Assembly (NCBI GenBank): GCA_937132085.1
Contig: CAKZNV010000234.1
Coordinates: forward strand, 1-32,782
Source of the DNA: an uncultured Rubritalea sp.
Lineage (GTDB): Bacteria > Verrucomicrobiota > Verrucomicrobiia > Verrucomicrobiales > Akkermansiaceae
DNA length: 32,782 bases
Reading direction: 5' to 3'
This document shows, piece after piece, positions 8,245 through 25,054 of this stretch (positions are counted from its first letter, which is position 1; every line of letters starts with the position of its first letter). A program made the translations under genes and the position numbers. The notes beneath the pieces were generated by a model. The model was not told the DNA's origin. It worked only from the letters and a program-made list of their open reading frames with translations, and did not search any database.

Positions 8245-8832
8245 CTATTTAGGAGTCACGCCTTCTGAAACAACACTAACATTATCGACATAAAGATCTC
8301 TAGAGATGCTGTCTGTAGAGATCTGCACCCAGCGAACATAGATTTCATCTCCTAAATCATCTTTGGTAAGCTTGTAGCTAAATTTAACTGTCTCCTCTAT
8401 AGAATCTTGCTTTTTCTGCAGTCTTTTCATGCCTGATGTCGCTAATACCTTTTTATCTGTCTTATTGAAAAGTTGCACTTCATAGCTCACGTAAGAGGCA
8501 TTCACATTAAAAACATTCGTGCTGACTGTAAGCTTAGAGTCTGCTGCAGCAGCTTTACCCAAAAACATCTGAGCTCCATACTTACCACCTAGGCTAAGAC
8601 TATTAATCTGCACTCCACCATCAGACTTACCATCACCACCATCAAGATCATTTTGCACTACTCTCACGACAGGCACCTTCGCTTCAATCTCTCCATCTGG
8701 AGCTTCTACGATGACTCCTTTAAGAACTCTCAGCAAATCTTCTTTCGATTGAAAGTTAACTGTTTCAATTCCTGCCATAGCAGATTGCAAACACATTAAA
8801 GCAACAACTGGGATTATATATTTAATTTTCAT
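8245..8832 (-). CDS. Secreted protein with RD-YVDN-SV jelly-roll-like domain, no PEP-CTERM
   Basis: 195 residues with a clear signal peptide (IIPVVALMCLQSAMA then GIE). The C-terminal part (DEIYVRWVQISTDSISRD then LYVDNVSVVS) matches the end of the domain in the PEP-CTERM protein at 12298 (VLQIRFIEDHNSTARDVYVD then NFSV). The sequence after it is only EGVTPK, so the surface-sorting tail is absent. The pattern suggests a beta-sandwich, possibly carbohydrate-binding, but no known family is recognised with confidence. It diverges from the first PL8 lyase across an intergenic region with two candidate IclR sites, which ties its expression to glycosaminoglycan use. Confidence 0.75.
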   Translation of the reverse strand: MKIKYIIPVVALMCLQSAMAGIETVNFQSKEDLLRVLKGVIVEAPDGEIEAKVPVVRVVQNDLDGGDGKSDGGVQINSLSLGGKYGAQMFLGKAAAADSKLTVSTNVFNVNASYVSYEVQLFNKTDKKVLATSGMKRLQKKQDSIEETVKFSYKLTKDDLGDEIYVRWVQISTDSISRDLYVDNVSVVSEGVTPK

Positions 8833-8896
8833 AACATTTAAACACTAGTCTAGCACCATGGCATCTCAAGCCATAAAACGACGTTATCCCTCTAGC

Positions 8897-8912
8897 GTTT
8901 CATATGTGAAAC
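8897..8912. promoter_or_regulatory. Candidate IclR operator 1
   Basis: GTTTCATATGTGAAAC, an inverted repeat with 6-bp arms GTTTCA/TGAAAC around TATG. It lies 64 bases upstream of the secreted-protein gene (minus strand) and 102 bases upstream of the PL8 gene at 9015. This is the most symmetrical of the five sites and defines the motif. Confidence 0.65.
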
Positions 8913-8947
8913 CTCATCGTTTAAAATAATAAAATTTCACCTCAACT

Positions 8948-8962
8948 GTTCACATATGGCAC
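8948..8962. promoter_or_regulatory. Candidate IclR operator 2
   Basis: On the minus strand this reads GTGCCATATGTGAAC, sharing CATATGTGAA with site 1 and lying in the opposite orientation 52 bases before the PL8 start at 9015. Two sites in one divergent promoter region suit cooperative control. Confidence 0.55.
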
Positions 8963-9014
8963 TCCATGGTGGTGAAGAATTGCTAGTTATTTAAATACAT
9001 GCAAACTATCAACA

Positions 9015-12005
9015 ATGAAAAAATCTACTATACTTGGTGGCATCTCACTAACACTAACACTCTTTGTGCCCTGCTGTAATAAGCAAACTAAAGAAGCGAA
9101 GGACTCCAACACGATTGAAACTATTCTCTTCACATCAGGAAAAACAGAGACAACACAAGAAGTAGAGTCGGACATTAGTTTTACAAGCGACGAGCTACCT
9201 TCTTCTATGGAATGGATTGACTCTAAACTCACTCTAGATTCAACACGTTCAATCTGGAGTGATCAATCATTACGCTGGGACTGGAAATGCAATGGTTCAC
9301 TGACCTTTCACCGACCAATCAATTGGGTGCAACCCAAAGAAGCTCGAAGAATACACAAGTTTTTTCATCCAGTAGAGAACTGCTTCGTATTCTGGGTTTA
9401 CAATGAAAAGCCCTTACCAGACTCATCTCTCACACTTCATTTTGGTGATGAACAAAAAGACATCACTCATTTCAAATTCAACCTAAACTTCAGTGGCTGG
9501 CGAACAGCTTGGGTTTCCTATGACAGTGATATGAAAGGTTCTGTAAAAAAAACTCTATCTCGTATCCGTATAGAAGCACCTAGTAACATTAAGGAAGGAA
9601 CCCTCTGGTTAGGAGACATCAGCCCACACAAATTCATCGACGAAAGACATCGCCACGGAGACGCTCAGGTTCCTACTGTTAGAAACTCGCATAAACTAAC
9701 AGAAGGTCACTGGGATCCTATTATGTATTGGTATAAACTCGGTAAAACGAACCAATCTGAGTTTGAAATCACAGAGAGTCACATAGCTGGACTAGCCCAG
9801 CTAAAGGCAAAACGTCCAAAACAAAAAACAAAGACTATTTCTGACCAACTTGTTCAACAGTTAGAAAAACAATTTAGCGCATTCAATATTAAATACACAG
9901 ATCAAGGTATCTCCGGAGATCACATCTACATGACCCATCAAAGTGAAGGTGCTCCTAATAAAAAGACGAACAAAGGCCATAAGCTGAAGGTCTATACTCA
10001 GTTCATGTTGCAGCTAGCTAAAGCATGGTCAAACACTCCAGAAGCAGAACGCTCCGAGACGAATGCTATCAAGGTTAGCTCTATGTTCTGCGACATGGTT
10101 CGACACATGTTAGACCAAGGATTCACTGCGGAAAGTGCTCTAGGAACCATGCACCATTTTGGCTACACAGCTAGAGCGTGGGTGCCAGCTATCGATCTCA
10201 TGCAAAAGCCTCTTCTCGATAACGGTTTACTAGAACAAGCCAGAGAGTCTCTCACGTGGTTTTACAATAGTAATCAAATGTATACCCCTGCGCCACATGG
10301 AGCAAATATGGATTACCTCAACACCCTTTCAGCCTCAGACTTCATGATCCACAACCTTGGCGCTGATGATGCAAACAAAGCAACTAGACTCCTTACTTTT
10401 TCTAAGTGGTTAAGTGAGATGATTGCCTCTGAATCGAATGGTAAATCAGGAGGTTTCAAACCTGATGGTTCACTTTATCATCATCAAATGCACTACTTCG
10501 GCTACGGCATCCCAGCTCTAACAACAATCATTTCAAAAGTGGTCAAACCTCTAGATGATACTCCCTTTGAGATTTCAGATGAAGCATACCTTGTTCTGAA
10601 GAAATCCTTACTCAGCGCCCAACGTTGGGGCTATCCTTATGGAGGTTGGAATGCTTGTGGCCGCCATCCGATCACAACTTCAGGTAACAGTTTTAAATCT
10701 GCTCTACTCACTCTAGCTAGATCTAAGCCTGGCACTACTAAAGTCGATACAGAACTTGCCTCAGCATACCTTAGCATGTTCGGCGGTGACAGCCTCGCCT
10801 TGTTTGGTGAATCTGTAAAACCAACAAGACAAGACGGTCTATGGGCAATGAATTACAATGCGGCTGCAAGTTATCTCCACGAAGGCAACACCGTTCAGGT
10901 AAAGGGCTATGGTGACGGCATCAAATCACATGAAACCTATAAAGCTGATAACCGCTACGGTAGATACAATAGTCATGGTTCGATCCAAGTGTTCAAGAAC
11001 ACAACCAGCCACACAAGTGGGGTTAAGCAAGCGGGATGGAATTGGAGCAAAAACCCAGGGACAACCTCTCTCCTGCTCCCACTAGATACTCTTGAAGGCA
11101 GTAAAAGTTTCTATGGTTCGGGTCCAAAGCAGAACACCAGTCCATCAGGAGCAGGCTCATTAAATAATAAGTTTGGCGCCTTCCTTTTCCAGCTAAACCC
11201 AACTTCAGATGATCAGTCACTCAAAGTTCGCAAATCTGTATTTTTCATTGATGACAAGCTCATCTGTCTAGGCAGTAACATCACTAACCAGCATAACAAG
11301 TTTGAAACAATCACCACTCTTTTTCAAACCTCACATATTGATCAACTCAGAGATAGTTTAGCTCCATCTGAAAACCAGCCATGGTTAGTCGACAACTTCG
11401 AAACAGGGTATTACCTCCCTGAAAAAGTTAACGACATTCAGTATAGCAGCGGAGAACAGGTCTCCAAACATAACAAAACTAGAGCTAAGACTCAGGGCGA
11501 ATTCTCCACCGCATGGATAAATCATGGTATTACTCCAAGCAATGCTCGTTACCAATACCACATGCTATTAAATGCTTCAGCTGATAAGCTTGAACAATGG
11601 CATAAGCAACAAAACTCAGCACAAAAAATACAAATCATTCAACAGGACGAAACAGCTCACGCTATACATGATCCATCAAATCAAATCACTGCATATTGCC
11701 TGTTCGCTCCATTTTCTAACGAGGACAACACTGTTCTCTTAAATTCGACAGATCGTTCATGCATCGTATTGTTCAAAAAGGAAACTCCATCCAGCCTACT
11801 CTTGAGTATCACAGACATTGATCTCCCTGATCTAGGTAAACGTAATGATAAGTTAGAATCGACAGTTATATTGAATGGTAAATGGCTACTAGATAAACCT
11901 ACCAAGCCATCAGTGCAAATCATTCACGAGAACAACACTACACGCATTCGCACACCATCTAATAGAGGCCAATCTATAAACCTTAGACTGACACTCGCTC
12001 CATAA
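9015..12005 (+). CDS. Chondroitin ABC lyase-like polysaccharide lyase (PL8), probably lipid-anchored
   Basis: 996 residues, close to the length of Proteus chondroitinase ABC. The N-terminus (LTLTLFVPCC then NKQ) looks like a lipoprotein signal with an atypical lipobox. Domain order: N-terminal beta-sandwich (about 40-200), helical toroid with catalytic residues (about 210-620), super-sandwich (about 620-890) and C-terminal beta domain. Residues aligning by eye with the chondroitinase ABC set are all present: His490 and Tyr497 in YHHQMHYFGY, Arg550 in CGRHP, Glu640 in SHETYKADNRYGRY. Beta-elimination of a uronate-containing glycosaminoglycan, leaving an unsaturated uronate end, is therefore expected. 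Chondroitin, dermatan or hyaluronan are all possible. It has its own upstream operator pair and is separated from the other lyase genes by a PEP-CTERM gene and the regulator. Confidence 0.9.
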   Translation: MKKSTILGGISLTLTLFVPCCNKQTKEAKDSNTIETILFTSGKTETTQEVESDISFTSDELPSSMEWIDSKLTLDSTRSIWSDQSLRWDWKCNGSLTFHRPINWVQPKEARRIHKFFHPVENCFVFWVYNEKPLPDSSLTLHFGDEQKDITHFKFNLNFSGWRTAWVSYDSDMKGSVKKTLSRIRIEAPSNIKEGTLWLGDISPHKFIDERHRHGDAQVPTVRNSHKLTEGHWDPIMYWYKLGKTNQSEFEITESHIAGLAQLKAKRPKQKTKTISDQLVQQLEKQFSAFNIKYTDQGISGDHIYMTHQSEGAPNKKTNKGHKLKVYTQFMLQLAKAWSNTPEAERSETNAIKVSSMFCDMVRHMLDQGFTAESALGTMHHFGYTARAWVPAIDLMQKPLLDNGLLEQARESLTWFYNSNQMYTPAPHGANMDYLNTLSASDFMIHNLGADDANKATRLLTFSKWLSEMIASESNGKSGGFKPDGSLYHHQMHYFGYGIPALTTIISKVVKPLDDTPFEISDEAYLVLKKSLLSAQRWGYPYGGWNACGRHPITTSGNSFKSALLTLARSKPGTTKVDTELASAYLSMFGGDSLALFGESVKPTRQDGLWAMNYNAAASYLHEGNTVQVKGYGDGIKSHETYKADNRYGRYNSHGSIQVFKNTTSHTSGVKQAGWNWSKNPGTTSLLLPLDTLEGSKSFYGSGPKQNTSPSGAGSLNNKFGAFLFQLNPTSDDQSLKVRKSVFFIDDKLICLGSNITNQHNKFETITTLFQTSHIDQLRDSLAPSENQPWLVDNFETGYYLPEKVNDIQYSSGEQVSKHNKTRAKTQGEFSTAWINHGITPSNARYQYHMLLNASADKLEQWHKQQNSAQKIQIIQQDETAHAIHDPSNQITAYCLFAPFSNEDNTVLLNSTDRSCIVLFKKETPSSLLLSITDIDLPDLGKRNDKLESTVILNGKWLLDKPTKPSVQIIHENNTTRIRTPSNRGQSINLRLTLAP

Positions 12006-12024
12006 GCTATAATTCCTAAAGTTT

Positions 12025-12052
12025 TGCTCTGGATTTAATCAAACCCAGAGCA
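12025..12052 (+). terminator. Weak hairpin after the first PL8 gene
   Basis: TGCTCTGG, a 12-base loop, then CCAGAGCA: an 8-bp perfect stem 20 bases after the stop. No T-run follows on the plus strand, so a transcript-end or stabilising role is only possible. Confidence 0.35.
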
Positions 12053-12138
12053 GTGAACACAATAACAGTTCGCATACCCTATCCATGCCAATAGTTAAAA
12101 CGGCTTCAATAATTCACCCTAAACACCACTTTATACTA

Positions 12139-12159
12139 GTTCCGTTTCAAATGCGGAAC
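12139..12159. promoter_or_regulatory. Degenerate candidate IclR operator 5
   Basis: GTTTCAAATGCGGAAC (12144-12159) matches the site-1 motif at 13 of 16 positions. It also sits inside a second inverted repeat, GTTCCG-N9-CGGAAC (12139-12159). It lies about 140 bases upstream of the PEP-CTERM gene at 12298. Operator function is tentative. Confidence 0.35.
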
Positions 12160-12297
12160 GCGGCCTTAGATGGATAGTGACAAGCTATAAGCCCCCTGTA
12201 AGTTGAAAAACAAATCCTACTCATGGAGTGGGTGAACCTTTCTCTGGCATTAAAAATTGCTGAGAAATTTCATAATAAAAAAACTACAACTAACAAT

Positions 12298-12939
12298 ATG
12301 AATAGAAAAATAACAACAGCATGTATCCTTACAGCAAGCACTCTAACAGCATCCGCTGCCATCACGGCAACCAGTGATGACTTCGACACAGCTATCGGCG
12401 GCACTTGGCTTAGTGTGGGCTCTGTGGCTACGAACATTCTTCACGACGGCACATCTACATTTGACGGAGGACTCACCGGCGGTGATATGCTCGATGATGA
12501 CGGAGGTCTTCGTTTGGACACAACCAACTCCACTGCTGGCGATGAGGCAATGGGGCTCAACATTGGTGGCACGATGGAAGAAGGAAACATCATCACCTTC
12601 AGCTACGGCCTCTACAATGACAATGGTAGCTTCAACAGAGCCACGGCCCAGCTATTTAACCTTACAGACAATACCATCTTGATGACTTCTGCTGCACATA
12701 CAATTGATGGCACAGGTGGTCAGCCAACTCCGGAGAATATTGATGACTCATTGGTTTATATCGCACAAAACAGCGATGAAGGAGATGTTCTGCAAATCCG
12801 CTTTATTGAGGATCACAACAGCACTGCTCGTGACGTTTATGTGGACAATTTCAGTGTCACATCTGTAGTTCCTGAGCCATCCTCCACAGCCCTTCTCGGC
12901 CTCGGTGGTCTAGCCCTGATTCTTCGTCGTAGAAAATAG
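12298..12939 (+). CDS. PEP-CTERM protein with RD-YVDN-SV domain
   Basis: 213 residues from the ATG at 12298. An in-frame ATG at 12223 would add 25 residues before the signal peptide (ITTACILTASTLTASAA then ITA), so the later start is preferred. The extracellular domain has alternating strands ending in STARDVYVDNFSV, then the sorting tail VPEPSSTALLGLGGLAL and RRRK. The domain end matches the unanchored protein at 8245-8832. It is probably a surface-displayed carbohydrate-associated protein serving the lyase locus; that role rests on position and shared regulation-like sites, not on a recognised binding family. Followed by a strong terminator. Confidence 0.8.
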   Translation: MNRKITTACILTASTLTASAAITATSDDFDTAIGGTWLSVGSVATNILHDGTSTFDGGLTGGDMLDDDGGLRLDTTNSTAGDEAMGLNIGGTMEEGNIITFSYGLYNDNGSFNRATAQLFNLTDNTILMTSAAHTIDGTGGQPTPENIDDSLVYIAQNSDEGDVLQIRFIEDHNSTARDVYVDNFSVTSVVPEPSSTALLGLGGLALILRRRK

Positions 12940-12959
12940 AATTCACCTCAGTATTTTAC

Positions 12960-12999
12960 AGAGCCCTATTACACTACATGTGTAATAGGGCTCTTTTTT
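12960..12999 (+). terminator. Strong rho-independent terminator
   Basis: AGAGCCCTATTACAC, loop TACAT, GTGTAATAGGGCTCT, then TTTTT. The 15-bp stem is perfect and the T-run immediate, 21 bases after the PEP-CTERM stop. It isolates the PL8/PEP-CTERM unit from iclR. Confidence 0.95.
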
Positions 13000-13319
13000 A
13001 TTATGTTCGTAGTTAGCTTCTCCCTCAAGTCTATGCAAACCGTCATGCTACAGAAAATACGCTACCCCCCCCAAAAAAAACAATATTCTGTGTAAAACTT
13101 GTAACAACAGATTTTTTAAGACGCCGTTTAAACCTAATGATCCACCCAGGACAAACTAAATAGCTTCATCGCCTACTCTTCTAGAAACCTAGAAGAGTCT
13201 AACATTTCACACAAGATAGTCCTCCATTTAATTTATGTCTCTATGACATTGATCCAATTTTCATATTTATGAAGAAGAGAGAAAATAACCACTTTCCATT
13301 CCACACGTAGAACTCAGTC
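13000..13319. other. Intergenic region upstream of iclR
   Basis: Between the terminator and the operator are a homopolymer pair C8A8 (13065-13080), a perfect 10-bp hairpin ACTCTTCTAG-AAAC-CTAGAAGAGT (13175-13198), and a TTCATA-TT-TATGAA inverted repeat (13260-13273). No coding potential is apparent. The hairpin lacks a U-run on either strand, so it is not a standard terminator. Confidence 0.5.
13175..13198. repeat. 10-bp perfect inverted repeat
   Basis: ACTCTTCTAG, loop AAAC, CTAGAAGAGT, in the long leader of iclR. It could be a structured 5' UTR element, a small RNA or a protein site. No U-run is present to support termination. Confidence 0.6.
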
Positions 13320-13334
13320 GTCCATATATGAAAC
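13320..13334. promoter_or_regulatory. Candidate IclR operator 3 (autoregulation)
   Basis: GTCCATATATGAAAC differs at one base from the site upstream of eda (GTCCATATGTGAAAC). It lies 74 bases before the iclR start codon, consistent with autoregulation and with control of the downstream GH105 and PL8 genes. Confidence 0.6.
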
Positions 13335-13408: not shown

Positions 13409-14164
13409 ATGAGTGATTACAAAATTCCTAATATAGCAAACACCTGTCACATCTTTCAACTTCTCACCAAAACCAAGAAGATCATGAATGCGAGTGAAAT
13501 AGCCAAGGAGCTAGAGCTGCCGAGAACTTCAGTGTATCGCATTCTAAAAACTCTAGAGGGAGAAAATATGGTTCGTAAAGTAGGTAAAGGTTACGTCATG
13601 GGCCATCGCCTCATTAACTTAGGTCTCCAGGTTATTTCAAAAGTCCCAGAACGTCAAATTTGCGTTCCTATTCTTCAGGAACTCACTAGAGAAATCAATG
13701 AGTCAACTCACTTTGCCATTCTATCGGGTCGCAATATGTTGCTCATCGAAGTTTGTGATAGTCCACACGCTCTTAAAGTAGCTAGTCGTCCTGGATCGCT
13801 AGCCGACATACACTGTTCAGCATCAGGAAAATGTTTCTTAGCATACGCTCCAGCAACTGCTGCAGAAGAACTCATGGACAGCCTTACTTATACTAAGAGG
13901 ACGGAGAAGACACACACATCCAAGGAATCACTACTAGCCGAACTCCCTAGCGTAAAAAGTAAAGGCTTTGCTATTGATGACATTGAATACGCTGAGAATA
14001 TTCGTTGTTTAGCTGCTCCTGTTTTTAATAGATCTGGGCAGATCGTTGGTGCGATTGGCACTACCGCTGCCACCTCTCGCTTCCCTAAATCTAAAATCCC
14101 ACAAATGGCTAAAGCAGTCATACTAGCAGCCAATAAACTATCTAAGAAATTCGGTAAAATCTAA
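13409..14164 (+). CDS. IclR-family transcriptional regulator (KdgR-like role)
   Basis: 251 residues. Residues about 8-70 are a winged helix (NASEIAKELELPRTSVYRILKTLEGENMVRKVGKGYVMG) and about 80-250 the IclR effector domain, with LEELTREINESTHFAILSG-like strands, GSLADIHCSASGKCFLAY and GAIGTTAATSRFP. IclR proteins of this kind control uronate catabolism; KdgR senses KDG or related keto-deoxy acids. It is first in an apparent operon with the GH105-DUF4861 and second PL8 genes, 30 bases upstream of the former. Recurrent CATATGTGAAAC sites near the locus promoters are the likely targets. Effector and sign of regulation cannot be read from sequence. Confidence 0.9.
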   Translation: MSDYKIPNIANTCHIFQLLTKTKKIMNASEIAKELELPRTSVYRILKTLEGENMVRKVGKGYVMGHRLINLGLQVISKVPERQICVPILQELTREINESTHFAILSGRNMLLIEVCDSPHALKVASRPGSLADIHCSASGKCFLAYAPATAAEELMDSLTYTKRTEKTHTSKESLLAELPSVKSKGFAIDDIEYAENIRCLAAPVFNRSGQIVGAIGTTAATSRFPKSKIPQMAKAVILAANKLSKKFGKI

Positions 14165-14194: not shown

Positions 14195-16498
14195 ATGATG
14201 AATAAATCCACATTACTACTGAGTGCGTTCACTAGCACATTCCTACTCACCCAACCAACTGTTTACGCTCAAGAAGCAACAGTTAAAGAAGCTACTAAAG
14301 AGTCTATATTCTCTGCTAAGCTCACCACTGCTGACATCCTAAAAGTGAGTAACGCAGTCGCAGACTGGCAGCTAGCTAATCCGTCTAAGCATATAGACAC
14401 CGACTGGACGAGCGGAACACTCTGGGCAGGATTAATCGCACACACTCACACTACAGGCAACAAGCGCTATAGCGATTATCTCCGAGCGATGTCTAAGAAA
14501 AACAACTTTCAACTCGGCCCCCGTCATGGATTCGCTGATGACCACATCGTAGGTAGAGCGTATATTTGGCAATACATGCAGGATGAAATTCCTAGTCAGC
14601 TAGCCCCTACTGAGCAGGTTATGAAAGAATTTATTTCACGACCACATGAGGAGTCTCTCTTCTGGGTGAATCAAATCCACCTTAGAGAATGGGCTTGGTG
14701 CGATTCACTCTACATGTCCCCACCCGTTCTTGCGCAGCTCTACACGGCTACAGGAAACAAAGAATATCTCGATGCAATGGATAAGCTCTGGTGGAAGACC
14801 TCTGATTATCTATACGATGAAGAAAGCAATCTCGTATGGAGAGATTCTAATTACTTTAAGCTCCAGGAAAAAAATGGCGAAAAGGTCTTCTGGGCACGAG
14901 GCAACGGCTGGGTCATCGCAGGACTCTGTGACATCATGCAGAACATGCCAGCTGACTATCCTACTCGTCCTAAATATGAAAAACTCTTTAAAGAATTAGC
15001 AGCCAAATTAAAGTCGATCCAGTGTGAAGACGGTTCTTGGCATGCAGCTCTGTTAGATTCTGAGACATATACTTCACCAGAGTCTAGTGGCACAGCATTC
15101 TTCGCCTACGCATTTGCATGGGGCATCAACCACGGTCTTCTAGAGAAGGAAGAATACATGCCTAGCATCAACAAAGCATGGACTCGCTTGGTAGCAAATG
15201 TTCACCCAGATGGAAAACTAGGATATGTCCAAGCGATTGGTAAAGATCCTCAGGCTGTCACAATGGATGAAACAGATGTCTACGGAGTAGGTGGATTCCT
15301 CCTAGCTGCTCATGAGCTATTCAAGCTCAAGCTAACAGAAGGATCTAACAGTATTGATGTAACTATAACAAACCCTAGCTCAGCGCATCGTCTGAACAGC
15401 GTCATCGAACTAAACTGGGAGCAACTAAAAGAAAAATCACCAGGGATTACTGCTAAAAATGTAGCTATTCAAGACACTAGAACTGGCTATTTTCTTCCTG
15501 TCCAATTGTTTGATAATGGAACATCTGACACACTACTCACTCAGGTAAACCTACCTCCAAATCAAAGCAACACTCTACGAGTCTACAAGCTCAACAAGAA
15601 GCAACCTGCATTCCTGCCATCACGCCTACACTTAAGATTCGTCCCCGAGCGCAAGGACGACTTTGCTTGGGAAAATGATCGCCAGGCATTCCGTATGTAT
15701 GGTCCAGCCCTAGCAGAGGAAGGAGCTAGCAGCGGTGTTGATATCTGGAGTAAACGCACTCGTGGATTAGTCATCGATGACTGGTATAAAGATGGACCTA
15801 CTCAATACCACACTGACCGTGGAAATGGTATGGATGTCTACAAGGTGGGTCCTACACTCGGTGCAGGTGGACTAGGCTTCATGGATGCTGAGAACAAACT
15901 CATCGTTGGTCCTCAGTTCCAATCTTGGAAAATCATTGATAAAGGACCACTTCGTTTGCGCTTTCAGTTCAACTACGCACCTATCGAAATAGGTAAAAGT
16001 GGAGGCAAGGTTTCTGAGACCCGCACTATCTCAATGGATGCTGGTTCCCATTTCTTCAGCACACGTTCAGAGTTCCGCACCGAAGGTGATGTGACCGGAG
16101 TGCGTCCAGCAACTGGACTCTACGTTCACAATCCTAAAAAGCTCAAGCTCAAAGGATTTGAAGATGATCAAGTGATCATGCAGAGTTCACAGTCGATCGC
16201 TCTATGGGAAATGTTAGGTCACGATAAAGATAAAGCTGGCAGCATAGGAACAGCCATTGTCTTCCCTCAGGGAGGCATCGTCTCTGAGTTCAAGAAAGAT
16301 CAGCCAAATACTTACGTCGTTCACCGTGACAAAAAGCATGTCTATCTACCACTAGCTCCATCACTGGAAAAGCCAGTGGAGTGGCAAGTTGGCACTTCTT
16401 GGGAACAAGTAGATTGTCCAAATGAAACGAAATTCCAAAGCCGAGTGTTTAAACATATTCATAAGGCGATCAATCAACCAATTGAAGTGAAGTTTTAA
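14195..16498 (+). CDS. Secreted GH105 unsaturated uronyl hydrolase fused to DUF4861
   Basis: 767 residues; signal peptide LLLSAFTSTFLLTQ then PTVYA. Residues about 40-385 are a GH105 (alpha/alpha)6 barrel: RHGFADDHIVGRAYIWQ, WCDSLYMSPPVLAQL (candidate acid Asp170), WARGNGWV (233-240), ESSGTAFFAYAFAWG, MDETDVYGVGGFLLAAHE. Residues about 390-765 match DUF4861: ITNPSSAHRLNSVIELN, then RKDDFAWENDRQAFRMYGPAL. GH105/GH88 enzymes hydrate the C4=C5 double bond left by lyases, releasing the keto-deoxyuronate precursor, which fits between the PL8 lyases and KduI. GH88 is the more usual partner of chondroitin lyases; the WxRGNGW form points to GH105. DUF4861's role is unknown. The start could be either codon of the ATGATG. 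Confidence 0.88.
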   Translation: MMNKSTLLLSAFTSTFLLTQPTVYAQEATVKEATKESIFSAKLTTADILKVSNAVADWQLANPSKHIDTDWTSGTLWAGLIAHTHTTGNKRYSDYLRAMSKKNNFQLGPRHGFADDHIVGRAYIWQYMQDEIPSQLAPTEQVMKEFISRPHEESLFWVNQIHLREWAWCDSLYMSPPVLAQLYTATGNKEYLDAMDKLWWKTSDYLYDEESNLVWRDSNYFKLQEKNGEKVFWARGNGWVIAGLCDIMQNMPADYPTRPKYEKLFKELAAKLKSIQCEDGSWHAALLDSETYTSPESSGTAFFAYAFAWGINHGLLEKEEYMPSINKAWTRLVANVHPDGKLGYVQAIGKDPQAVTMDETDVYGVGGFLLAAHELFKLKLTEGSNSIDVTITNPSSAHRLNSVIELNWEQLKEKSPGITAKNVAIQDTRTGYFLPVQLFDNGTSDTLLTQVNLPPNQSNTLRVYKLNKKQPAFLPSRLHLRFVPERKDDFAWENDRQAFRMYGPALAEEGASSGVDIWSKRTRGLVIDDWYKDGPTQYHTDRGNGMDVYKVGPTLGAGGLGFMDAENKLIVGPQFQSWKIIDKGPLRLRFQFNYAPIEIGKSGGKVSETRTISMDAGSHFFSTRSEFRTEGDVTGVRPATGLYVHNPKKLKLKGFEDDQVIMQSSQSIALWEMLGHDKDKAGSIGTAIVFPQGGIVSEFKKDQPNTYVVHRDKKHVYLPLAPSLEKPVEWQVGTSWEQVDCPNETKFQSRVFKHIHKAINQPIEVKF

Positions 16499-16517: not shown

Positions 16518-19500
16518 ATGAAACACTCACTCATAAAAGCTCTTTGCTCACTCACCCTCATCACTAGTTTGTCTGGAGTTGGGTATGGAGCTGACGTCTA
16601 TTCATTTGAAACTGCTTTGAGCAAGGATTTCCAAGCTCAAGTCAAACTAGGAATGACGGTGAGTGTCTCTGACAAGCAGGCTGTGTTAGGCAAAAAATCA
16701 TTGCGCCTAGCATGGTCAGAGGAAGGCGGAAGCGTCACTATCCCAGTGAGTATCACCACAGATAACCAACTCATTGACAACAGAAGACATGCTGCCGTGT
16801 TCTCCACTTGGATTTATCAAGATACGGCACTGAGTGGACAGAAACTCAGCGTTGAGTTCGGTGTTGATAAGCAAACTAAACCTCAATGTTCGTTTATCTA
16901 TCAACTTGGTCATCAGGGATGGAGAACCGTTTTCTATCCGTTTAATCGGATGGAAGGAAAGCATGGTGGTAAACTAAATTGGATAAGAATCACAGCGCCT
17001 GAAGGCAAGGCAGGAGAAGCCTATCTGGATCTCCTAGTTCCCTCTGTGCAGTATGATCGGAGACACGCTTCGGAAGATGAAAGCTATCAGTTTACTAAAG
17101 ACGACGAGCATTCGAGAATTCGTAAAGGTGAACCTATCGATATCTATCATCAAGGTTTCCGCAAAATTGCTACTACGCCGATCACAGAAGAACAGAAAAA
17201 ATCGATCAAGGCACTGGAAGCAACCATGCAGAGATCGATCGTTGGTTCTAAGAAGAAGAGCAACTTAGAAGCTCTCACTAAGCAGTTTAATACCTACGAT
17301 ATCGAACAAGGAGGTAAGCACATCTTTTTCCTGCATACCACCGATCTTTACAAAGGACTCTCGATAGAAAAAGGCATCAAGAAACAACTCAAATTTGACA
17401 TCAAAGCAACGGGTGATTTTCTGCTTAAACTAACGCAAGCTTGGTATCATGCGGATGATCTAGAAGAGAAGTCATCGCTAGAGGATATGATCATTTCGAT
17501 GCATAAACTTCTGCTCAAATCTGGCTGGAACAAAGGTCATGCCCACGGCACCATGCATCACTTTGGCTACAATAGCAGAGGCTATTACAGAGCTAGTTTT
17601 ATCGCTAGAGAGTTACTAGAGAACCACCAACTCCGTGAACCTGTAGCCGCCGCATTACAATGGTTCAATGACGCTCTCTATTGTTACGAAAAAGGAGCAC
17701 CTCAGCATTATGCAAATTTAGATTACTACAACACACTCGCTCTAGAACAGCTATTCGCGATCCTGATGACTAAAGACGATAGCCAGCGCTATCAAGCCAC
17801 GGTGCAGTGGACTAAAACTCTTAGCCAAAGCATCGCACTAAAAACTCATAGCATAGAGGGTGGCTTCAAGGAAGACGGCTCTGCATACCACCATTGGGGA
17901 CACTATCCTGCTTATCAAGTGGGCGCCATGAGTTCTATTGCTAAGTTGTTTTATCACTTTCATGACACCCCATTTAGGCTCACACCTGAAGCATATAGAA
18001 ACTACGAAAACTCACTACTCGGGATGCGTATCTGGAGTAATAAATATAATTTTCCTCGTGCTCTCAGTGGCCGCCATCCTATGCCAAGAGACGGACAATT
18101 CGGACTTCCAGCAGTCAAAGACGCTTTTATAAAGTTTGCTCTATCAGGCTCAGCAGATGGCAAACAAACGCTAAACCAAAAGGTAGCCGCAGCAGCACTA
18201 AGACTCTATCCTGATGCCGCTTCTAAATTCCCTAACAGCATTACTCCAGAAACCACTCCATCCGGACACTGGTCATTCCCTTACGCAGCGACCAGCGCAC
18301 ATAGACGAAGCGAATGGTTAGCAGTAGCTCGTGGTCACAGTAAAAATGTCTGGGCTTCTGAGATCTACGGAGCTGTCAATCTCTACGGAAGATATCAGAG
18401 CCACGGCACACTAGAAATTCTACCTAACGGTGGACTAGCTGCATCAGGGGTCAATGAACTAGGCTGGGACTGGTCCCGACCTCCAGGATCAACAGTAACC
18501 TATCTTCCTACTGAGCAGATCCCCTTCGATAGCGTGGTCATGATGTCTACATCCCTCACAAACTATGCCGCTACAGTGCACAGCGATAATGAGAATGGAC
18601 TATTTGCGCTTCAGTTAGCCGAGAAAACAGAACCTAACAGAACTGAGTTCGGACTCAGAGCGAGGAAGAGTTATAGCTTTTTTGATAATGTCATCGTCTG
18701 TCTTGGTAGCGACATCCATGGACCTAGCCCAGACCATCCAGTGCAGACAAACCTCTTCCAACAATTCCTCAAAACCGCCGATACTCCAACAGCGATCAAT
18801 GACAAAGTAATCACCGCTTTGCCCTGGAAAGAACAACTGAATTCCCCCGCTCTACTGAAAGATGCAGTGGGTCATTACTACTACGTCCCTCAGAAAGAAA
18901 AGGGCCAGAACTTAAACCTCAGCAGATCTACTCAGCATTCTAGATACCACTATCCGACGATGAAGACTCGACCTAAATCGGTTGCCAGAGCCAAACAGAA
19001 TCCTGCTACACAAGCAGACTACGCATGTGCCTGGATAGATCATGGAATTCAGCCAAACGGCGCTAGCTACGAATATGCCGTCATCGTTTATCCATCAGCA
19101 GACCAAGTGAAAGACTGGAAGCCAAGCTACCAGATCATCCAGCATGATGCAGACGCACACATCGTGAAGTCTGGTGACACCGAGTGTTTTAGCTTGTTCA
19201 CAGGGAAATCGATCAAACATGATTTCATCGCCTCAGTCTCTGCTCCATGTGCCATCATCACTAAACAAGTAGGCAAGCAAATCAAACTCAATCTAACAGA
19301 CCCGGACCTTCGTTTCCCGGGTGATAATGGCGGTGATCTACACGGAGAAATCCATCTAGCACCTAGCGATATCCCAGAAGAAGCTAAACTCACGATCATC
19401 CTCAAAGGGAACTACCAAAGTAATTCACCAGGACTAAGATTGAAGCAATCTAACAACACGACCGAGCTAACCTTTACTACCAAAAGAGGTCGCACTCTCG

Positions 19501-19529
19501 AATGTCTGTTAACTCCAGCCTCACGATAA
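16518..19529 (+). CDS. Chondroitin ABC lyase-like polysaccharide lyase (PL8), secreted
   Basis: 1003 residues with a cleavable signal peptide (LCSLTLITSLSGVGYGA then DVY). The N-terminal domain has SFETALSKDFQAQVKLGMTV as in chondroitinase ABC; then come the helical catalytic domain (NLDYYNTLALEQL, GGFKEDGSAYHHWGHYPAY), the super-sandwich (VNLYGRYQSHGTLEI, ELGWDWSRPPGST) and a C-terminal beta domain. The inferred catalytic set is complete: His459, Tyr466, Arg519, Glu615. It starts 19 bases after the GH105 gene, so lyase and hydrolase are probably made together. It is clearly diverged from the PL8 at 9015 and has a different type of N-terminal targeting, which suggests division of labour (for example endo- versus exo-acting, or different sulfation patterns); that is inference. 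Confidence 0.92.
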   Translation: MKHSLIKALCSLTLITSLSGVGYGADVYSFETALSKDFQAQVKLGMTVSVSDKQAVLGKKSLRLAWSEEGGSVTIPVSITTDNQLIDNRRHAAVFSTWIYQDTALSGQKLSVEFGVDKQTKPQCSFIYQLGHQGWRTVFYPFNRMEGKHGGKLNWIRITAPEGKAGEAYLDLLVPSVQYDRRHASEDESYQFTKDDEHSRIRKGEPIDIYHQGFRKIATTPITEEQKKSIKALEATMQRSIVGSKKKSNLEALTKQFNTYDIEQGGKHIFFLHTTDLYKGLSIEKGIKKQLKFDIKATGDFLLKLTQAWYHADDLEEKSSLEDMIISMHKLLLKSGWNKGHAHGTMHHFGYNSRGYYRASFIARELLENHQLREPVAAALQWFNDALYCYEKGAPQHYANLDYYNTLALEQLFAILMTKDDSQRYQATVQWTKTLSQSIALKTHSIEGGFKEDGSAYHHWGHYPAYQVGAMSSIAKLFYHFHDTPFRLTPEAYRNYENSLLGMRIWSNKYNFPRALSGRHPMPRDGQFGLPAVKDAFIKFALSGSADGKQTLNQKVAAAALRLYPDAASKFPNSITPETTPSGHWSFPYAATSAHRRSEWLAVARGHSKNVWASEIYGAVNLYGRYQSHGTLEILPNGGLAASGVNELGWDWSRPPGSTVTYLPTEQIPFDSVVMMSTSLTNYAATVHSDNENGLFALQLAEKTEPNRTEFGLRARKSYSFFDNVIVCLGSDIHGPSPDHPVQTNLFQQFLKTADTPTAINDKVITALPWKEQLNSPALLKDAVGHYYYVPQKEKGQNLNLSRSTQHSRYHYPTMKTRPKSVARAKQNPATQADYACAWIDHGIQPNGASYEYAVIVYPSADQVKDWKPSYQIIQHDADAHIVKSGDTECFSLFTGKSIKHDFIASVSAPCAIITKQVGKQIKLNLTDPDLRFPGDNGGDLHGEIHLAPSDIPEEAKLTIILKGNYQSNSPGLRLKQSNNTTELTFTTKRGRTLECLLTPASR

Positions 19530-19573: not shown

Positions 19574-19625
19574 TTAAAATTCATCTTAGAGAAGAGACTG
19601 TATCACCTATCTATTAACTCATTTT

Positions 19626-19640
19626 GTCCATATGTGAAAC
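19626..19640. promoter_or_regulatory. Candidate IclR operator 4 upstream of the KDG operon
   Basis: GTCCATATGTGAAAC, matching the iclR-leader site at 14 of 15 positions and sharing CATATGTGAAAC exactly with site 1. It lies 100 bases before the eda start and is the only such site upstream of the seven-gene catabolic operon. Confidence 0.65.
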
Positions 19641-19740: not shown

Positions 19741-20355
19741 ATGTTTTCCCAAGCCATCATACCAGTCATAGTTATTAAAAATGCTCAGCATGCGACAGCT
19801 CTTGGGCAGACACTAGTCGACAATGGTCTGCCAATCGCAGAAGTGACACTTCGCACCGAATCAGCACTTCTCTCCATCCAAGCGATGAGTCAGATAGAAG
19901 GTTTACAGGTAGGAGCTGGGACAGTGCTTACTGTTGAGCAAGCCAGACAAGCCATTGAATCTGGTGCTACGTTTCTCGTTAGCCCTGGGATTCATCAAGA
20001 TGTTATAGAATACGCCCAGTCTCAGTCTATTCCCATCATCCCAGGAATCACATCTCCTAGCGAAATGGCGAAAGCGATCGATCTAGGACTAGACACAGTC
20101 AAGTTTTTCCCAGCAGAGGCTCTTGGAGGAATCAAGCTGCTCAAAGCAATCGCCAGTGTTTATCCCCACATCAAGATCATGCCTACCGGTGGTATTTCAC
20201 CATCAAATGTGCTCGACTACTTAGCACTCGATAGTGTGATAGCCTGCGGAGGTTCTTGGATGGTTCCTGAGGATTTAGTAAAAGCTCAAGATTTCGATAC
20301 CATCGCAGGACTCATCAAAGAGGCTGTTCAACTCTCAACTCCTCTTAATAACTAA
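19741..20355 (+). CDS. eda: 2-keto-3-deoxy-6-phosphogluconate (KDPG) aldolase
   Basis: 204 residues, the normal length of the bifunctional KDPG/KHG aldolase. It cleaves KDPG to pyruvate and glyceraldehyde-3-phosphate through a Schiff base. Motifs: AEVTLRTESAL with catalytic Glu34, the GAGTVLT loop, and DTVKFFPAEALGG with the Schiff-base Lys121, then MPTGGISPSNV for phosphate binding. Cytosolic. First gene of the operon eda-kdgK-kduI-TRAP-kduD, with an IclR-type site 100 bases upstream. The last two pathway steps come first in transcription order. Confidence 0.95.
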   Translation: MFSQAIIPVIVIKNAQHATALGQTLVDNGLPIAEVTLRTESALLSIQAMSQIEGLQVGAGTVLTVEQARQAIESGATFLVSPGIHQDVIEYAQSQSIPIIPGITSPSEMAKAIDLGLDTVKFFPAEALGGIKLLKAIASVYPHIKIMPTGGISPSNVLDYLALDSVIACGGSWMVPEDLVKAQDFDTIAGLIKEAVQLSTPLNN

Positions 20356-20360
20356 TTGTT

Positions 20361-21386
20361 ATGTTCATCAGTCTCGGAGAAATCATGTTGCGCTTCTGTC
20401 CTGGGGATACTCCTCTTAGGGCTGCTCAGCAGTTCACCTTTTCTGAAGGTGGAGGCGAATACAATGTCGCTCGTGCTCTCAGCCGTTGCTTCGAGATTGA
20501 CGCATCTATTATCACGTCATTAGTAGACAACGAAATCGGACACTTGGTGCAGCAGCTAGTCAGAAGCACTAACGTTAATACTCAGCATATTCTCTGGAGA
20601 GACTTTGATGGTATCGGTAAAGAAGTGCGTAACCCACTCTATTTTGCTGAACGAGGGTTAGGACACAGAGCACCTAAAGCCACTATGGATCGTGGCCACT
20701 CTGCACCGAGTCAGATCAAGACTGAAGACTTCGATTGGGATGCTATTTTTTCAGACTCATCCGTCAAATGGTTTCACACAGGAGGCATCTTTGCAGGGCT
20801 TTCAGACTCCACACTAAAAGTAGCCGAGCATGCAATGAAAGTTGCTCGTAAACATGGCGTCTATGTCTCTTACGACCCAAACTACAGAGCATCTTTATGG
20901 CAGGACAAAGGTGGCGCAGAGGCCGCAAGACTAGCCAATTTCACCTTAGCGCAATATGCAGACACTCTATTCGGCGTAGCTCCCCTTCTCCATTCAGTAG
21001 CTCCACCTACTGATCAGGCTCAGCTTGAACAACTCATTTTAGAAACCGCACAAGCCTTCCCACAGGTGGAAACGATTGTAGTAGGTCAACGCACGATCCA
21101 ATCCGCCAGCGTCCACGACTATGCATCCACATTCTACCAGCAAGGTGAAATCAGCACAGTAACAGGCTATCAAAATATTCAGGTTTTAGACCGAATTGGT
21201 AGCGGCGACGCATTCGCAGCAGGTTACATAGCAGCCATACTCACTCAGCAATCCACTGAATTTGCAGCCCAGCAAGGTTGCGCCACAGCCGCTCTCACCA
21301 TGAGCACACCTGGAGATGCCGTTCTAGTCTCAAAACAGGACGTCTTAGCTCTAACAAACCAAACCCACTTCTCGGAATCCCGATAA
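20361..21386 (+). CDS. kdgK: 2-keto-3-deoxygluconate (KDG) kinase, PfkB family
   Basis: 341 residues of the ribokinase/PfkB fold. The N-terminus ISLGEIMLRFCPGD and EGGGEYNVARALSR carry the family's substrate-binding glycines; the C-terminal signature VLDRIGSGDAFAAGYIA contains the catalytic base Asp283. It phosphorylates KDG to KDPG in the cytosol, feeding Eda, whose gene ends five bases upstream. The KDG-specific assignment rests on context (eda, kduI, kduD) together with the LYFAERGLGHR region typical of KDG kinases. Confidence 0.9.
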   Translation: MFISLGEIMLRFCPGDTPLRAAQQFTFSEGGGEYNVARALSRCFEIDASIITSLVDNEIGHLVQQLVRSTNVNTQHILWRDFDGIGKEVRNPLYFAERGLGHRAPKATMDRGHSAPSQIKTEDFDWDAIFSDSSVKWFHTGGIFAGLSDSTLKVAEHAMKVARKHGVYVSYDPNYRASLWQDKGGAEAARLANFTLAQYADTLFGVAPLLHSVAPPTDQAQLEQLILETAQAFPQVETIVVGQRTIQSASVHDYASTFYQQGEISTVTGYQNIQVLDRIGSGDAFAAGYIAAILTQQSTEFAAQQGCATAALTMSTPGDAVLVSKQDVLALTNQTHFSESR

Positions 21387-21413
21387 CTTTTAACAATATA
21401 AACAACACTATTT

Positions 21414-22244
21414 ATGAATAACCACCGAACATCTAGCAGCGACGCATACCCTACTTTCAATACAGAAAAGGTGCGCGATTCTTACTTACTTCAGTCACTC
21501 TTCAACAAAGGCCAACTAGACCTCGTCTATACTGATCTCGACCGAGCAATAGTCGGATCTGCTGTCCCTACTGACACTGACCTAACTCTTGAAGCTGGTG
21601 ACCAACTCCGCTCAGATTACTTCTGCGAACGCCGCGAGCTTGGAATCATTAACCTAGCTGGACCAGGAGTCGTCACAGTAGATGGCACTAGCTACGCATT
21701 AGAAAACCGCGAATGTCTCTACGTCGGTCGTGGATCTAAAAGCATTAGTTTCAGCTCTAACAAGTCAGATAACTGCGCTGAATTCTACCTTCTTAGCTAT
21801 CCAGCACACGCTACCTACCCTACTACTCACGCAGTAGTCGCTGATGCGAACAAACTAGAGCTAGGATCGTCTGAAGAAGCTAACGAACGCCACCTCTATC
21901 AATACATCCACGAGAACGGCATCCAATCTTGCCAACTTGTCATGGGATACACAGTGTTACAAACTGGTAGCGTCTGGAACACCATGCCACCGCACACACA
22001 TGATCGCCGCTCTGAAGTCTACTGTTACTTCGACATCGCACAAGGCCACCGTGTCGCTCACTTCATGGGTGAACCTCAGGAAACTAGAGCGCTATGGATG
22101 GGTGAAAAAGACATTGCTCTATCCCCATCTTGGTCGATCCACTCAGGTGTTGGCACAGGGTCATACGCATTCATCTGGGGCATGGGCGGTGAAAACCAAC
22201 GTTTCGATGACATGGACGGCTTCCCTATCTCTGAACTTCGTTAA
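21414..22244 (+). CDS. kduI: 5-keto-4-deoxyuronate isomerase
   Basis: 276 residues, matching the length of E. coli KduI. This cupin-fold zinc enzyme converts 5-keto-4-deoxyuronate (4-deoxy-L-threo-5-hexosulose uronate) to 2,5-diketo-3-deoxygluconate. The metal ligands are visible: His194 and His196 in PPHTHDRRSE, Glu201, and His243 in SWSIHSGVGT, each two residues earlier than the E. coli positions. N-terminal landmarks are SYLLQSLFNKGQLDLVYTD and the RRELGIINL segment. It takes the product of the GH105/PL8 reactions. Cytosolic; 12 bases upstream of the TRAP binding-protein gene. Confidence 0.96.
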   Translation: MNNHRTSSSDAYPTFNTEKVRDSYLLQSLFNKGQLDLVYTDLDRAIVGSAVPTDTDLTLEAGDQLRSDYFCERRELGIINLAGPGVVTVDGTSYALENRECLYVGRGSKSISFSSNKSDNCAEFYLLSYPAHATYPTTHAVVADANKLELGSSEEANERHLYQYIHENGIQSCQLVMGYTVLQTGSVWNTMPPHTHDRRSEVYCYFDIAQGHRVAHFMGEPQETRALWMGEKDIALSPSWSIHSGVGTGSYAFIWGMGGENQRFDDMDGFPISELR

Positions 22245-22256
22245 ACTATTCTCACT

Positions 22257-23288
22257 ATGAAAAAAAGCAGTCTATATTTCGGATTACTCCTAGGAGCACT
22301 CATCGCGTGTGGCGTATTTGCTGTTATCTTGCAGCAAAAGACGACCTCTCAAAATGCTCAAAGCTCTACTGTTAGAGAACTTAAGATTGCTCACTCACTA
22401 CCAACAAGCCATCCCGTCCACCAAGGCGTAGAACACTTTAGAAAGAGACTAGAGGAACTTTCAGGCGGCGCTATCACCTGCAATATCTTCCCTAACAACC
22501 AATTAGGAAAAGAGACTGAATATCTAGAAAAACTACAAACTGGTAGCCTCGATATAGCGAAGACTAGTGCTGCTCCGATAGGCAATTTTGTTCCTCGCAT
22601 GAAGGTTCTATCACTCCCTTATCTCTTTAGAGACCGTGAGCATTATTGGCAGACTCTCGATAGTGAAATAGGCCAAGGTCTACTAGAAAAACTCAGTGAT
22701 CGAGGAAATGGAAAGCCGTCAGGCATCCGAGGCCTTTGTTACTTTGACGCTGGAAGCAGAAATTTCTACTCGATGGATCCTGTGAAATCTCCTGAAGATC
22801 TGAAAGGTAAGATCATCCGAGTCATGGGTGATTCCATTTCCATGAAGATGGTTGAGTCCTTTGACGCTACTCCTAAATCTATGGGTGGTGGAGAGATCTA
22901 CGGAGCTCTAGAAAAAGGCGTGATTAATGGCGCTGAGAATAACCCACCAACATTCATTGCGCAGTCTCACTACGAAGTGTGTAAACATTTCACCTTCGAT
23001 CACCACTCACGCATCCCTGACATCCTCAACATCTCTAATTCCTTATGGGATCAGCTCTCAGATCAGGAGAAATCATGGTTCATGACTGCCGCTAAAGAAG
23101 CCAGTCAACTGCAACGCAAACTCTGGGAAAAAGACTCAAAGGCTGCGATTGAAAAGATGAAGGCTCATGGCGTCACGATCCATCATCCAGACACAAAACC
23201 ATTCGAAGCGCTGGCTGGATCTAGTTCAGAAAAAGAACTAAATGCAGAACAGAAACAACTCAAGAAATCCATCCGAGAGATCAAGTAA
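22257..23288 (+). CDS. TRAP transporter solute-binding protein, DctP family
   Basis: 343 residues: N-terminal signal or lipoprotein segment (FGLLLGALIACG), then a TRAP extracytoplasmic receptor (LKIAHSLPTSHPVHQGVEHF, LEKLQTGSLDIAKTS, LSLPYLFRDREHYWQ). LKGKIIRVMGDS carries the conserved arginine that binds the ligand carboxylate, and ALEKGVINGAENNPPTF completes the site. Given the operon, the ligand is probably a unsaturated or keto-deoxy uronate released outside the cytoplasm. The ALIACG sequence could act as a lipobox, giving a tethered receptor. Directly abuts the small permease gene. Confidence 0.92.
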   Translation: MKKSSLYFGLLLGALIACGVFAVILQQKTTSQNAQSSTVRELKIAHSLPTSHPVHQGVEHFRKRLEELSGGAITCNIFPNNQLGKETEYLEKLQTGSLDIAKTSAAPIGNFVPRMKVLSLPYLFRDREHYWQTLDSEIGQGLLEKLSDRGNGKPSGIRGLCYFDAGSRNFYSMDPVKSPEDLKGKIIRVMGDSISMKMVESFDATPKSMGGGEIYGALEKGVINGAENNPPTFIAQSHYEVCKHFTFDHHSRIPDILNISNSLWDQLSDQEKSWFMTAAKEASQLQRKLWEKDSKAAIEKMKAHGVTIHHPDTKPFEALAGSSSEKELNAEQKQLKKSIREIK

Positions 23289-23753
23289 ATGCTCAAACCT
23301 ATATCCAACTTTCTAAAGGCAGCCAACGTCCTTTGCATGGCAGCATTACTTCTCACAGTATTGCTCGTCATCATCGACGCTAAGCTAAAACTAGGCGCCA
23401 CGTGGGCCAGTGAACTATCCACCTTCCTACTAGGCTGGACAGTCATGCTAGGTGGCTCACTCGCCTATGCTCAGAAAGCTCATCTAGGTTTAGATATCCT
23501 CGTCAGTAAGTTCGACAATGACACACAGGCTGCAACTAAAACCACTGGCCATATTATCATCCTAGCCTTTGCATGCTTAGTGATGATCTACGGAGGAGCC
23601 CGCATCACATTCCAACGCTACGAAATGGAACAGCTACTCCCAGGTCTAGGTATCTCTAAAGCTTGGTATTACCTATGTCTCCCACTAGCTGGCACCCTCA
23701 TCGGTCTCATCGCTACCGCCCATATTTTCAACAACTCTAGCTCTAAGAACTAA
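23289..23753 (+). CDS. TRAP transporter small permease, DctQ family
   Basis: 154 residues with four predicted membrane helices (about 12-33, 46-64, 88-107, 124-145). The second helix has WASELSTFLLGWTVMLGGSLAYA, typical of DctQ, followed by the amphipathic KAHLGLDILVSKF. DctQ forms a complex with DctM in the inner membrane and helps dock the loaded binding protein. The start codon follows the dctP stop with no gap, and the TAA stop overlaps the dctM start by one base (TAATG), indicating translational coupling. Confidence 0.92.
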   Translation: MLKPISNFLKAANVLCMAALLLTVLLVIIDAKLKLGATWASELSTFLLGWTVMLGGSLAYAQKAHLGLDILVSKFDNDTQAATKTTGHIIILAFACLVMIYGGARITFQRYEMEQLLPGLGISKAWYYLCLPLAGTLIGLIATAHIFNNSSSKN

Positions 23754-25036: not shown

Positions 25037-25054
25037 CAACACACCGAAACAATC

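Follow-up and report, generated by a model that had tools for sequence, protein, structure and literature searches.

A carbohydrate-binding-module-like domain family represented by a free and a PEP-CTERM protein at a PL8 lyase locus of an uncultured Rubritalea

The PL8 hyaluronate lyase of Streptococcus pneumoniae carries at its N terminus a hyaluronan-binding carbohydrate-binding module (CBM), CBM70, a beta-sandwich jelly roll with a basic groove (R112, R145, K185), and the enzyme as a whole occurs both anchored by sortase and in soluble form (PMC4175358, available text). According to a review, hyaluronan-specific modules are known only in PL8 enzymes, as CBM70 (PMC11669647), and CBM100 is described as a beta-sandwich for chondroitin sulfate (PMC11122601, available text). 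Here we describe two secreted proteins, A and B, whose genes flank a PL8 lyase gene in 32,782 nucleotides of DNA from an uncultured Rubritalea sp. (Verrucomicrobiota; Akkermansiaceae). This whole stretch, referred to below as the window, is one entire contig (G000:C234) of a 4.46-Mb genome in 254 contigs that is 98.7% complete. The kind of system is ordinary, namely CBM-like accessory proteins of a glycosaminoglycan (GAG)-type PL8 locus; what is new is the detail, an unclassified domain family with one PL8-bound clade (free, tandem or fused) and one surface-sorted clade. We assign a probability of roughly 0.58 to the reading that A and B serve a GAG-type system for uronate polysaccharides as CBM-like accessory modules, one free and one probably exosortase-anchored.

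The CBM70 enzyme, with its jelly roll placed N-terminally on PL8, is a precedent for this pairing, but CBM70 forms one polypeptide with its lyase and has a basic groove, whereas the domains described here are mostly separate proteins and acidic. No sequence match to SpCBM70 was found, and its structure, 4D0Q, was not among the best 50 fold matches listed, which excludes nothing. CBM100 shares the ligand class proposed here and is set beside this family by description only. In Pontiella, PL8 chondroitin lyases and the use of sulfated polysaccharides have been reported in a paper whose available text does not contain the term 'carbohydrate-binding' (PMC7356697), and the available text on Verruconatronum places CBM70 among the modules of a PL17 enzyme and has no PEP-CTERM (PMC13274419). 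In the literature searched, with subscription papers mostly outside it, neither the domain nor its arrangement was found described, and no work joined PEP-CTERM, carbohydrate-binding and chondroitin. The central features of the window are as follows.

8245..8832, minus strand: protein A, 195 aa, an open reading frame (ORF) with a Sec-type signal peptide (by eye) and a predicted type I (clade I) jelly-roll domain
9015..12005, plus strand: PL8 lyase 1, similar to chondroitin ABC lyase and equipped with Lyase_N (PF09093 3.3e-63, PF09092 9.1e-35, PF02278 1.5e-25)
12298..12939, plus strand: protein B, 213 aa, with a signal peptide (by eye), a predicted type II (clade II) jelly-roll domain and a PEP-CTERM tail
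12868..12936, plus strand: sorting signal of B, of PEP-CTERM type, made up of a PEP motif, a hydrophobic stretch and RRRK

The longest B ORF begins at 12223. PL8 lyase 1 matches chondroitin ABC lyase (7eip/1hn0) with an E value of 3e-105. An earlier note on this DNA had placed A and B correctly, leaving the minus strand of A unstated, and had joined them by a common RD-(L/V)YVDN domain end. That likeness is one of true homology. BLASTP aligns the two proteins at 33% identity over 94 aa (E 4e-12, a single comparison), and their local alignment score of 138 compares with a maximum of 64 in 1000 shuffles of B. As the score survives shuffling even with the terminal YVDN stretch cut off (100 against a shuffle maximum of 57), the motif is just the most conspicuous part, at the end, of a domain common to both. 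A ends in ...SISRDLYVDNVSVVSEGVTPK and has no PEP-CTERM tail; B ends in ...TARDVYVDNFSVTSVVPEPSSTALLGLGGLALILRRRK, and its residues 191-212 match PF07589 (E 1.4e-6, 28.6 bits against a cut-off of 20.7) and TIGR02595 (4.8e-7). With no PF07589 match in A, the sorting tail is confined to B, as the earlier note had it. Two exosortase genes are present in the genome (PF09721, E 1.4e-49 and 1.9e-40), and B is probably an exosortase substrate anchored at the surface.

Known families do not cover the domain. A has no Pfam or NCBIfam match at E 1, and the domain of B is likewise uncovered by any Pfam or NCBIfam model. The curated cut-off of CBM_4_9 (PF02018) is not reached by any of 16 members; one of them matches at E 0.026, and A and B have no match at E 1. 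Against the PDB, a 16-row profile of the domain gave chance matches only (for example, antibody chains), and a six-row profile found only 5yvk at E 0.77, so that no chain matched at E < 0.1. We take the domain to be genuinely shared by A and B and to constitute an unclassified family.

Predicted structures place the domain among the jelly rolls of known CBMs. AlphaFold2 models, built from 14 aligned sequences for A and 16 for B, reached a mean predicted local distance difference test score (pLDDT) of 73 and a predicted template modelling score (pTM) of 0.71 for A, and a pLDDT of 85 and a pTM of 0.83 for B. The best folds for A were FamC1 5yvk (Z 13.1, root-mean-square deviation (rmsd) 2.5, 142 residues aligned) and CBM4-2 4bj0 (Z 12.9, rmsd 2.8, 137 aligned); those for B were CBM22 4xup/4xuo (Z 14.7, rmsd 2.6, 142 aligned) and HpiC1 types at about Z 14, the top matches being tied or nearly so for each protein. 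FamC1 and HpiC1 are Stig cyclases, which have this jelly roll in common with CBM4 and CBM22. Fold prediction and fold search, which the earlier note had proposed, therefore gave folds that are not unrelated, and both models are of the CBM4/CBM22 jelly-roll type. CBM4, CBM22 and CBM_4_9 thus supply the best or tied-best predicted folds, but at only about 9-16% identity.

The decisive evidence that the domain is a CBM-like module comes from PL8-fused and PL8-adjacent relatives outside the window. We searched with A, with B, and with the six-row and then the 16-row profile in overlapping sets of genomes from the window's family (195 drawn, then 260), the phylum (387), the class of G465 (327) and the order (326). 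A related-locus search seeded with A alone returned no relative. Strong domain matches occur in 14 genomes (G000, G080, G022, G129, G465, G331, G657, G661, G684, G670, G698, G432, G439 and G317), a count that omits weak matches in large, unrelated-looking proteins (G159, 2.3e-6; G032, 1.4e-4; G093, 3.5e-4). In eight of the 14, PL8 is fused to the domain or lies within 10 kb of it, although these are not eight independent events, as the sets overlap and some genomes are close relatives. The profile search near PL8 genes in Verrucomicrobiota that the earlier note had suggested thus ties the domain to PL8.

The linkage takes several forms. In G022 and G129 the domain is N-terminal in proteins of 1118 and 1110 residues, the remainder of which is PL8 (PF02278 9.3e-21 and 2.7e-21, with PF09093 also matched); Lyase_N (PF09092) was undetected in these fusions, which are the only PL8 genes of their genomes at E 1e-10. 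Lyase_N has the same chain position on PL8, but the PL8 enzymes of the window already have it, and an hhalign profile comparison gave a probability of 0.3%; a divergent Lyase_N was rejected. In G080 an ortholog of A with 61% identity lies beside PL8 in a locus like that of the window, comprising two PL8 genes, GH88/DUF4861, IclR, 2-keto-3-deoxy-6-phosphogluconate (KDPG) aldolase, a kinase, KduI, a TRAP transporter, a dehydrogenase and, in addition, a sulfatase, most of them recognized by eye from their likeness to the window's genes. In G465 (Pontiellaceae B12227), a type II protein (709 aa), a type I two-domain protein (360 aa), PL8 and a sulfatase follow one another on one strand, and another type II protein adjoins this row. 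In Pontiella sulfatireligans (probably G657) and in G661, a PL8 gene begins about 100 bp after that of a type II protein, and the PL8 genes of G331 are some 4 and 8 kb distant from the domain gene. Seven of these eight genomes contain 2, 1, 2, 1, 5, 8 and 16 PL8 genes, and by our own estimate a random gene would be expected within 10 kb of PL8 in about 0.5 to 5% of cases. Within the family, all four genomes with strong domain matches are among the 30 of 260 with PL8 (by-hand probability about 1.5e-4, uncorrected for relatedness). Its fusion to PL8 in two genomes and its place next to PL8 in others are what is asked of a CBM as the non-catalytic partner of a carbohydrate-active enzyme. No PL8 was seen on the stretches examined from G684, G670 and G698, short contigs (26.7 kb; 4.6 kb; 4.6 and 3.6 kb) beyond whose ends PL8 may lie; a single PL8 gene does occur in the genome of L078, a locus identical in place to G684, though on a different contig.

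A tree of 18 domains divides into two clades, with support of 99/97 on the splitting branch, and each clade is shared with Kiritimatiellae. Clade I contains A, its G080 ortholog, the two PL8-fused modules and both domains of the 360-aa G465 protein; all five proteins are fused to PL8 or encoded in a PL8 locus, and no PEP-CTERM tail was seen in any of them (the G080 ortholog having been read by eye). Clade II contains B, a paralog of B and ten more, and five of its 12 rows are PL8-linked. A and B are about 25-28% identical, and the two types adjoin each other at PL8 in the window as well as in G465, two classes apart. A and B therefore appear to be an old two-type set, as judged from the tree, and not a split of one protein; a recent soluble and anchored pair derived from one gene is rejected by the supported split. 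This placement speaks for a functional set and not for two versions of a single domain. The earlier note had proposed one domain in two versions, surface-bound and soluble; of this, the single domain family stands, whereas the two old clades, the low identity and the unlike charges of A and B (below) speak against two versions of one protein.

Outside the lyases, the domain is joined to varied partners, which is the modular shuffling expected of a CBM. In L088:2899-4644 (G698) it is N-terminal to a BNR sialidase-like domain (PF13859 7.9e-27). One chain joins it to a weak DUF4962/heparinase II-III match (9.5e-4 and 0.0034, below the cut-offs); a phmmer search of the L079 protein against the PDB returned nothing, and its heparinase-like nature rests on two such sub-cut-off Pfam matches. 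Separately, we note two related, large secreted proteins of Kiritimatiellae (L069:8787-10913 and L070:9705-12023) with a near-cut-off Malt_amylase_C match, which may represent a glycoside hydrolase not yet described and encoded repeatedly next to such PL8 loci.

The remainder of the locus, with its probable regulatory sites, is laid out as follows.

8897..8912, no strand assigned: palindrome GTTTCATATGTGAAAC, probable regulator site, between A and PL8 lyase 1
12144..12159, no strand assigned: palindrome-like site GTTTCAAATGCGGAAC upstream of B
12958..12996, plus strand: probable terminator hairpin after B, then a T run
13319..13334, no strand assigned: related site, two mismatches, upstream of the IclR-family gene
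13409..14164, plus strand: IclR-family regulator (PF01614 1.4e-40)
14195..16498, plus strand: GH88 + DUF4861, unsaturated uronyl hydrolase type (PF07470 5.8e-78, PF16153 1e-69)
16518..19529, plus strand: PL8 lyase 2 (PF09093 5.1e-70, PF02278 1.1e-28)
19625..19640, no strand assigned: related site, two mismatches, upstream of the KDPG aldolase operon
19741..25816, plus strand: KDPG aldolase, PfkB kinase, KduI, TRAP transporter (DctP, DctQ, DctM) and short-chain dehydrogenase (Pfam)

The genes at 19741..25816 are predicted to serve uptake and catabolism of unsaturated uronate. PL8, an unsaturated uronyl hydrolase, KduI, the KDPG and 2-keto-3-deoxygluconate (KDG) pathway and uptake genes are all present, as in a GAG-type PL8 locus, the substrate being a prediction. 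Directly after the uronate catabolism genes, 25865-26458 encodes a protein with a pseudopilin-like start, GFTLVELLVVLAIIGVLAS (by eye). On the other side, 5235-6194 and 6519-7478 (minus strand) encode tandem 319-aa PEP-CTERM proteins with about 78% mutual identity (251/320 positions including the stop); these neighbours of the locus do not match the YVDN domain profile.

That A and B have shared sites upstream, as the earlier note claimed, is borne out by the 16-bp palindrome. A pattern composed after the window's sites had been seen, GTTTCANATGNGRAAC, is present at two places of the window, 8897 (separating A from PL8) and 12144 (138 bp before B), and in none of 100 shuffles. A looser pattern with up to two mismatches yields four sites, before A/PL8, B, the IclR gene and the KDPG aldolase operon, against an average of 0.2 in shuffles. 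The exact 16-mer of the palindrome is not repeated anywhere else in the genome. Among the loci examined outside the window's contig, GTTTCANATGNGRAAC was found only in those of G080 (L035, L040, L048 and L053, all the same place), upstream of the A ortholog, where the counterpart reads GTTTCACATGCGAAAC; these sites are independent support for the palindrome. We infer that the local IclR-family protein binds the palindromes.

On the computed features, namely the shared domain, the fold class, PL8 fusion and linkage, the palindrome, the sorting signal and the exosortases, we build a proposal for ligand binding, ligand identity, anchoring and regulation. A, of type I, would be released or periplasmic and would hold substrate for the PL8 lyases; in other species a type I domain is part of the PL8 enzyme itself. 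B, of type II, would be fixed at the cell surface by exosortase and would keep the polymer, or an enzyme-polymer complex, near the cell. The ligand may be chondroitin or hyaluronan-like, and the local IclR-family regulator would turn on A and B together with the lyase operon. An extension that we hold to be a long shot is a two-part, non-covalent lyase display, in which free type I holds both polymer and lyase and acidic, exosortase-fixed type II docks the complex. If true, PEP-CTERM proteins would here do what scaffolds do in other forms of enzyme display; the system would have been retained in two classes of Verrucomicrobiota, with some species having simplified it to a type I-PL8 fusion.

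Several observations weigh against the accessory-module reading. Jelly rolls are widespread, and likeness of fold does not reveal a function. The only conserved tryptophan column of the family (12/16) is a gap in A; other conserved positions are N107, S111, N121, D160, R168 and R178 in the numbering of B. The domain of A has 21 basic and 25 acidic residues (net -4, isoelectric point (pI) 4.97), and that of B has four basic and 27 acidic residues (net -23, pI 4.05). Because B is so acidic, unlike the basic groove of CBM70, simple binding of a polyanion by B is disfavoured; direct binding would need calcium or a local basic patch, the alternative being docking of a basic lyase. The window's genus also contains a genome, G009, with four PL8 genes and no such domain. 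Further, the 80% paralog of B lies on contig C164 among genes without a lyase (functions read by eye), and in G432, G439 and G317, from another family of the order, the domain occurs in lone PEP-CTERM-like proteins, whose tails fall below the Pfam cut-off, with no PL8 at E 1e-10. The domain is thus not found mainly outside polysaccharide loci, the outcome that the earlier note had named as adverse, but part of clade II, namely the C164 paralog and the proteins of these three genomes, is. Finally, in G080 the gene between IclR and the A ortholog, the slot of B, encodes a different PEP-CTERM protein of 274 aa (L048:8434-9255). Pontiella sulfatireligans (with two copies), G661, G331 and L078 have this module and a type II domain within a single polypeptide, and in L078 it also stands beside a type II domain (matches E 2e-98 to 7e-48). 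The surface slot by the lyases can therefore hold either of two modules that occur joined in Kiritimatiellae.

Other explanations were also weighed. B might bind no sugar; it could be a protein of the surface or matrix, acidic and loaded with calcium, on which the basic PL8 lyases or A are displayed through protein-protein or electrostatic contact, so that only type I touches the polymer. The low pI of B beside the pI of 8.48 and 8.85 of the PL8 enzymes would suit this, as would the aspartate of YVDN, which aligns with the calcium-2 aspartate of Stig cyclases and CBMs (in an alignment to FamC1 at E 0.77, with numbering matched by DxD spacing); moreover, the PL8-fused modules of G022 and G129 belong to clade I and not II, and another anchored module fills the B slot in G080. 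However, a low pI is common in the set (below 4.5 in 13 of 16 domains), and type II domains share polypeptides with extracellular and catalytic-like modules in Kiritimatiellae and in a sialidase-like protein, as CBMs do; we consider this explanation unlikely. Alternatively, B might be just one of about 100 PEP-CTERM surface proteins, located here by accident, with only A belonging to the PL8 system. B is matched 104 times in the genome, mostly through its tail and about once per 43 kb, and because PEP-CTERM proteins are so common here, such a gene near a lyase is unremarkable by itself. In Akkermansia muciniphila, 23 PEP-CTERM proteins were predicted and nine detected (PMC4960237, available text). 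The paralog elsewhere, the clade II members in PL8-less genomes and the absence of B from G080, where its only domain match is the A ortholog, point the same way. Against chance placement, the promoter region of B has the locus palindrome, and clade II also lies beside PL8 in G465, G331, Pontiella sulfatireligans and G661, which leaves an accident rather improbable.

The YVDN end itself could have been a generic strand end of PEP-CTERM proteins. We took 32 such proteins of the genome from the 30 loci with the best matches to B, after setting aside the one that is A. Six of them have looser strand ends of the D(N/D) type, whereas the full RDx(Y/F)VDN and a match to the domain profile are confined to B and its 80% paralog, and the idea was rejected. 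Nor do the domains appear to be enzymes of the Stig-cyclase (HpiC1) type, an identity that would fit the cyclases among the best folds (Z 13-14), the terminal (Y/F)xDN strand, the aligned calcium-2 aspartate and weak PF22825 matches in three of 16 members (best 7.6e-4; one scored 17.3 bits against a cut-off of 27). The first aspartate of DxD, D214, is catalytic in the cyclases (PMC9063808, available text), but it is replaced by Y, F, V, A, C, I or N in all 16 members (column 204 of A4, a pairing taken from the weak alignment at E 0.77), and ours are secreted proteins of polysaccharide loci. We rejected this identity as exceedingly improbable.

If A and B are indeed CBM-like accessory modules, an unannotated family gains a testable role: it would be a candidate for a new family of CBMs, linked to PL8, in a phylum whose members degrade sugars in the sea and the gut. 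The cargo functions of PEP-CTERM proteins are mostly unknown, and a few of these proteins would gain a concrete hypothesis, the retention of substrate or enzyme at the cell surface.

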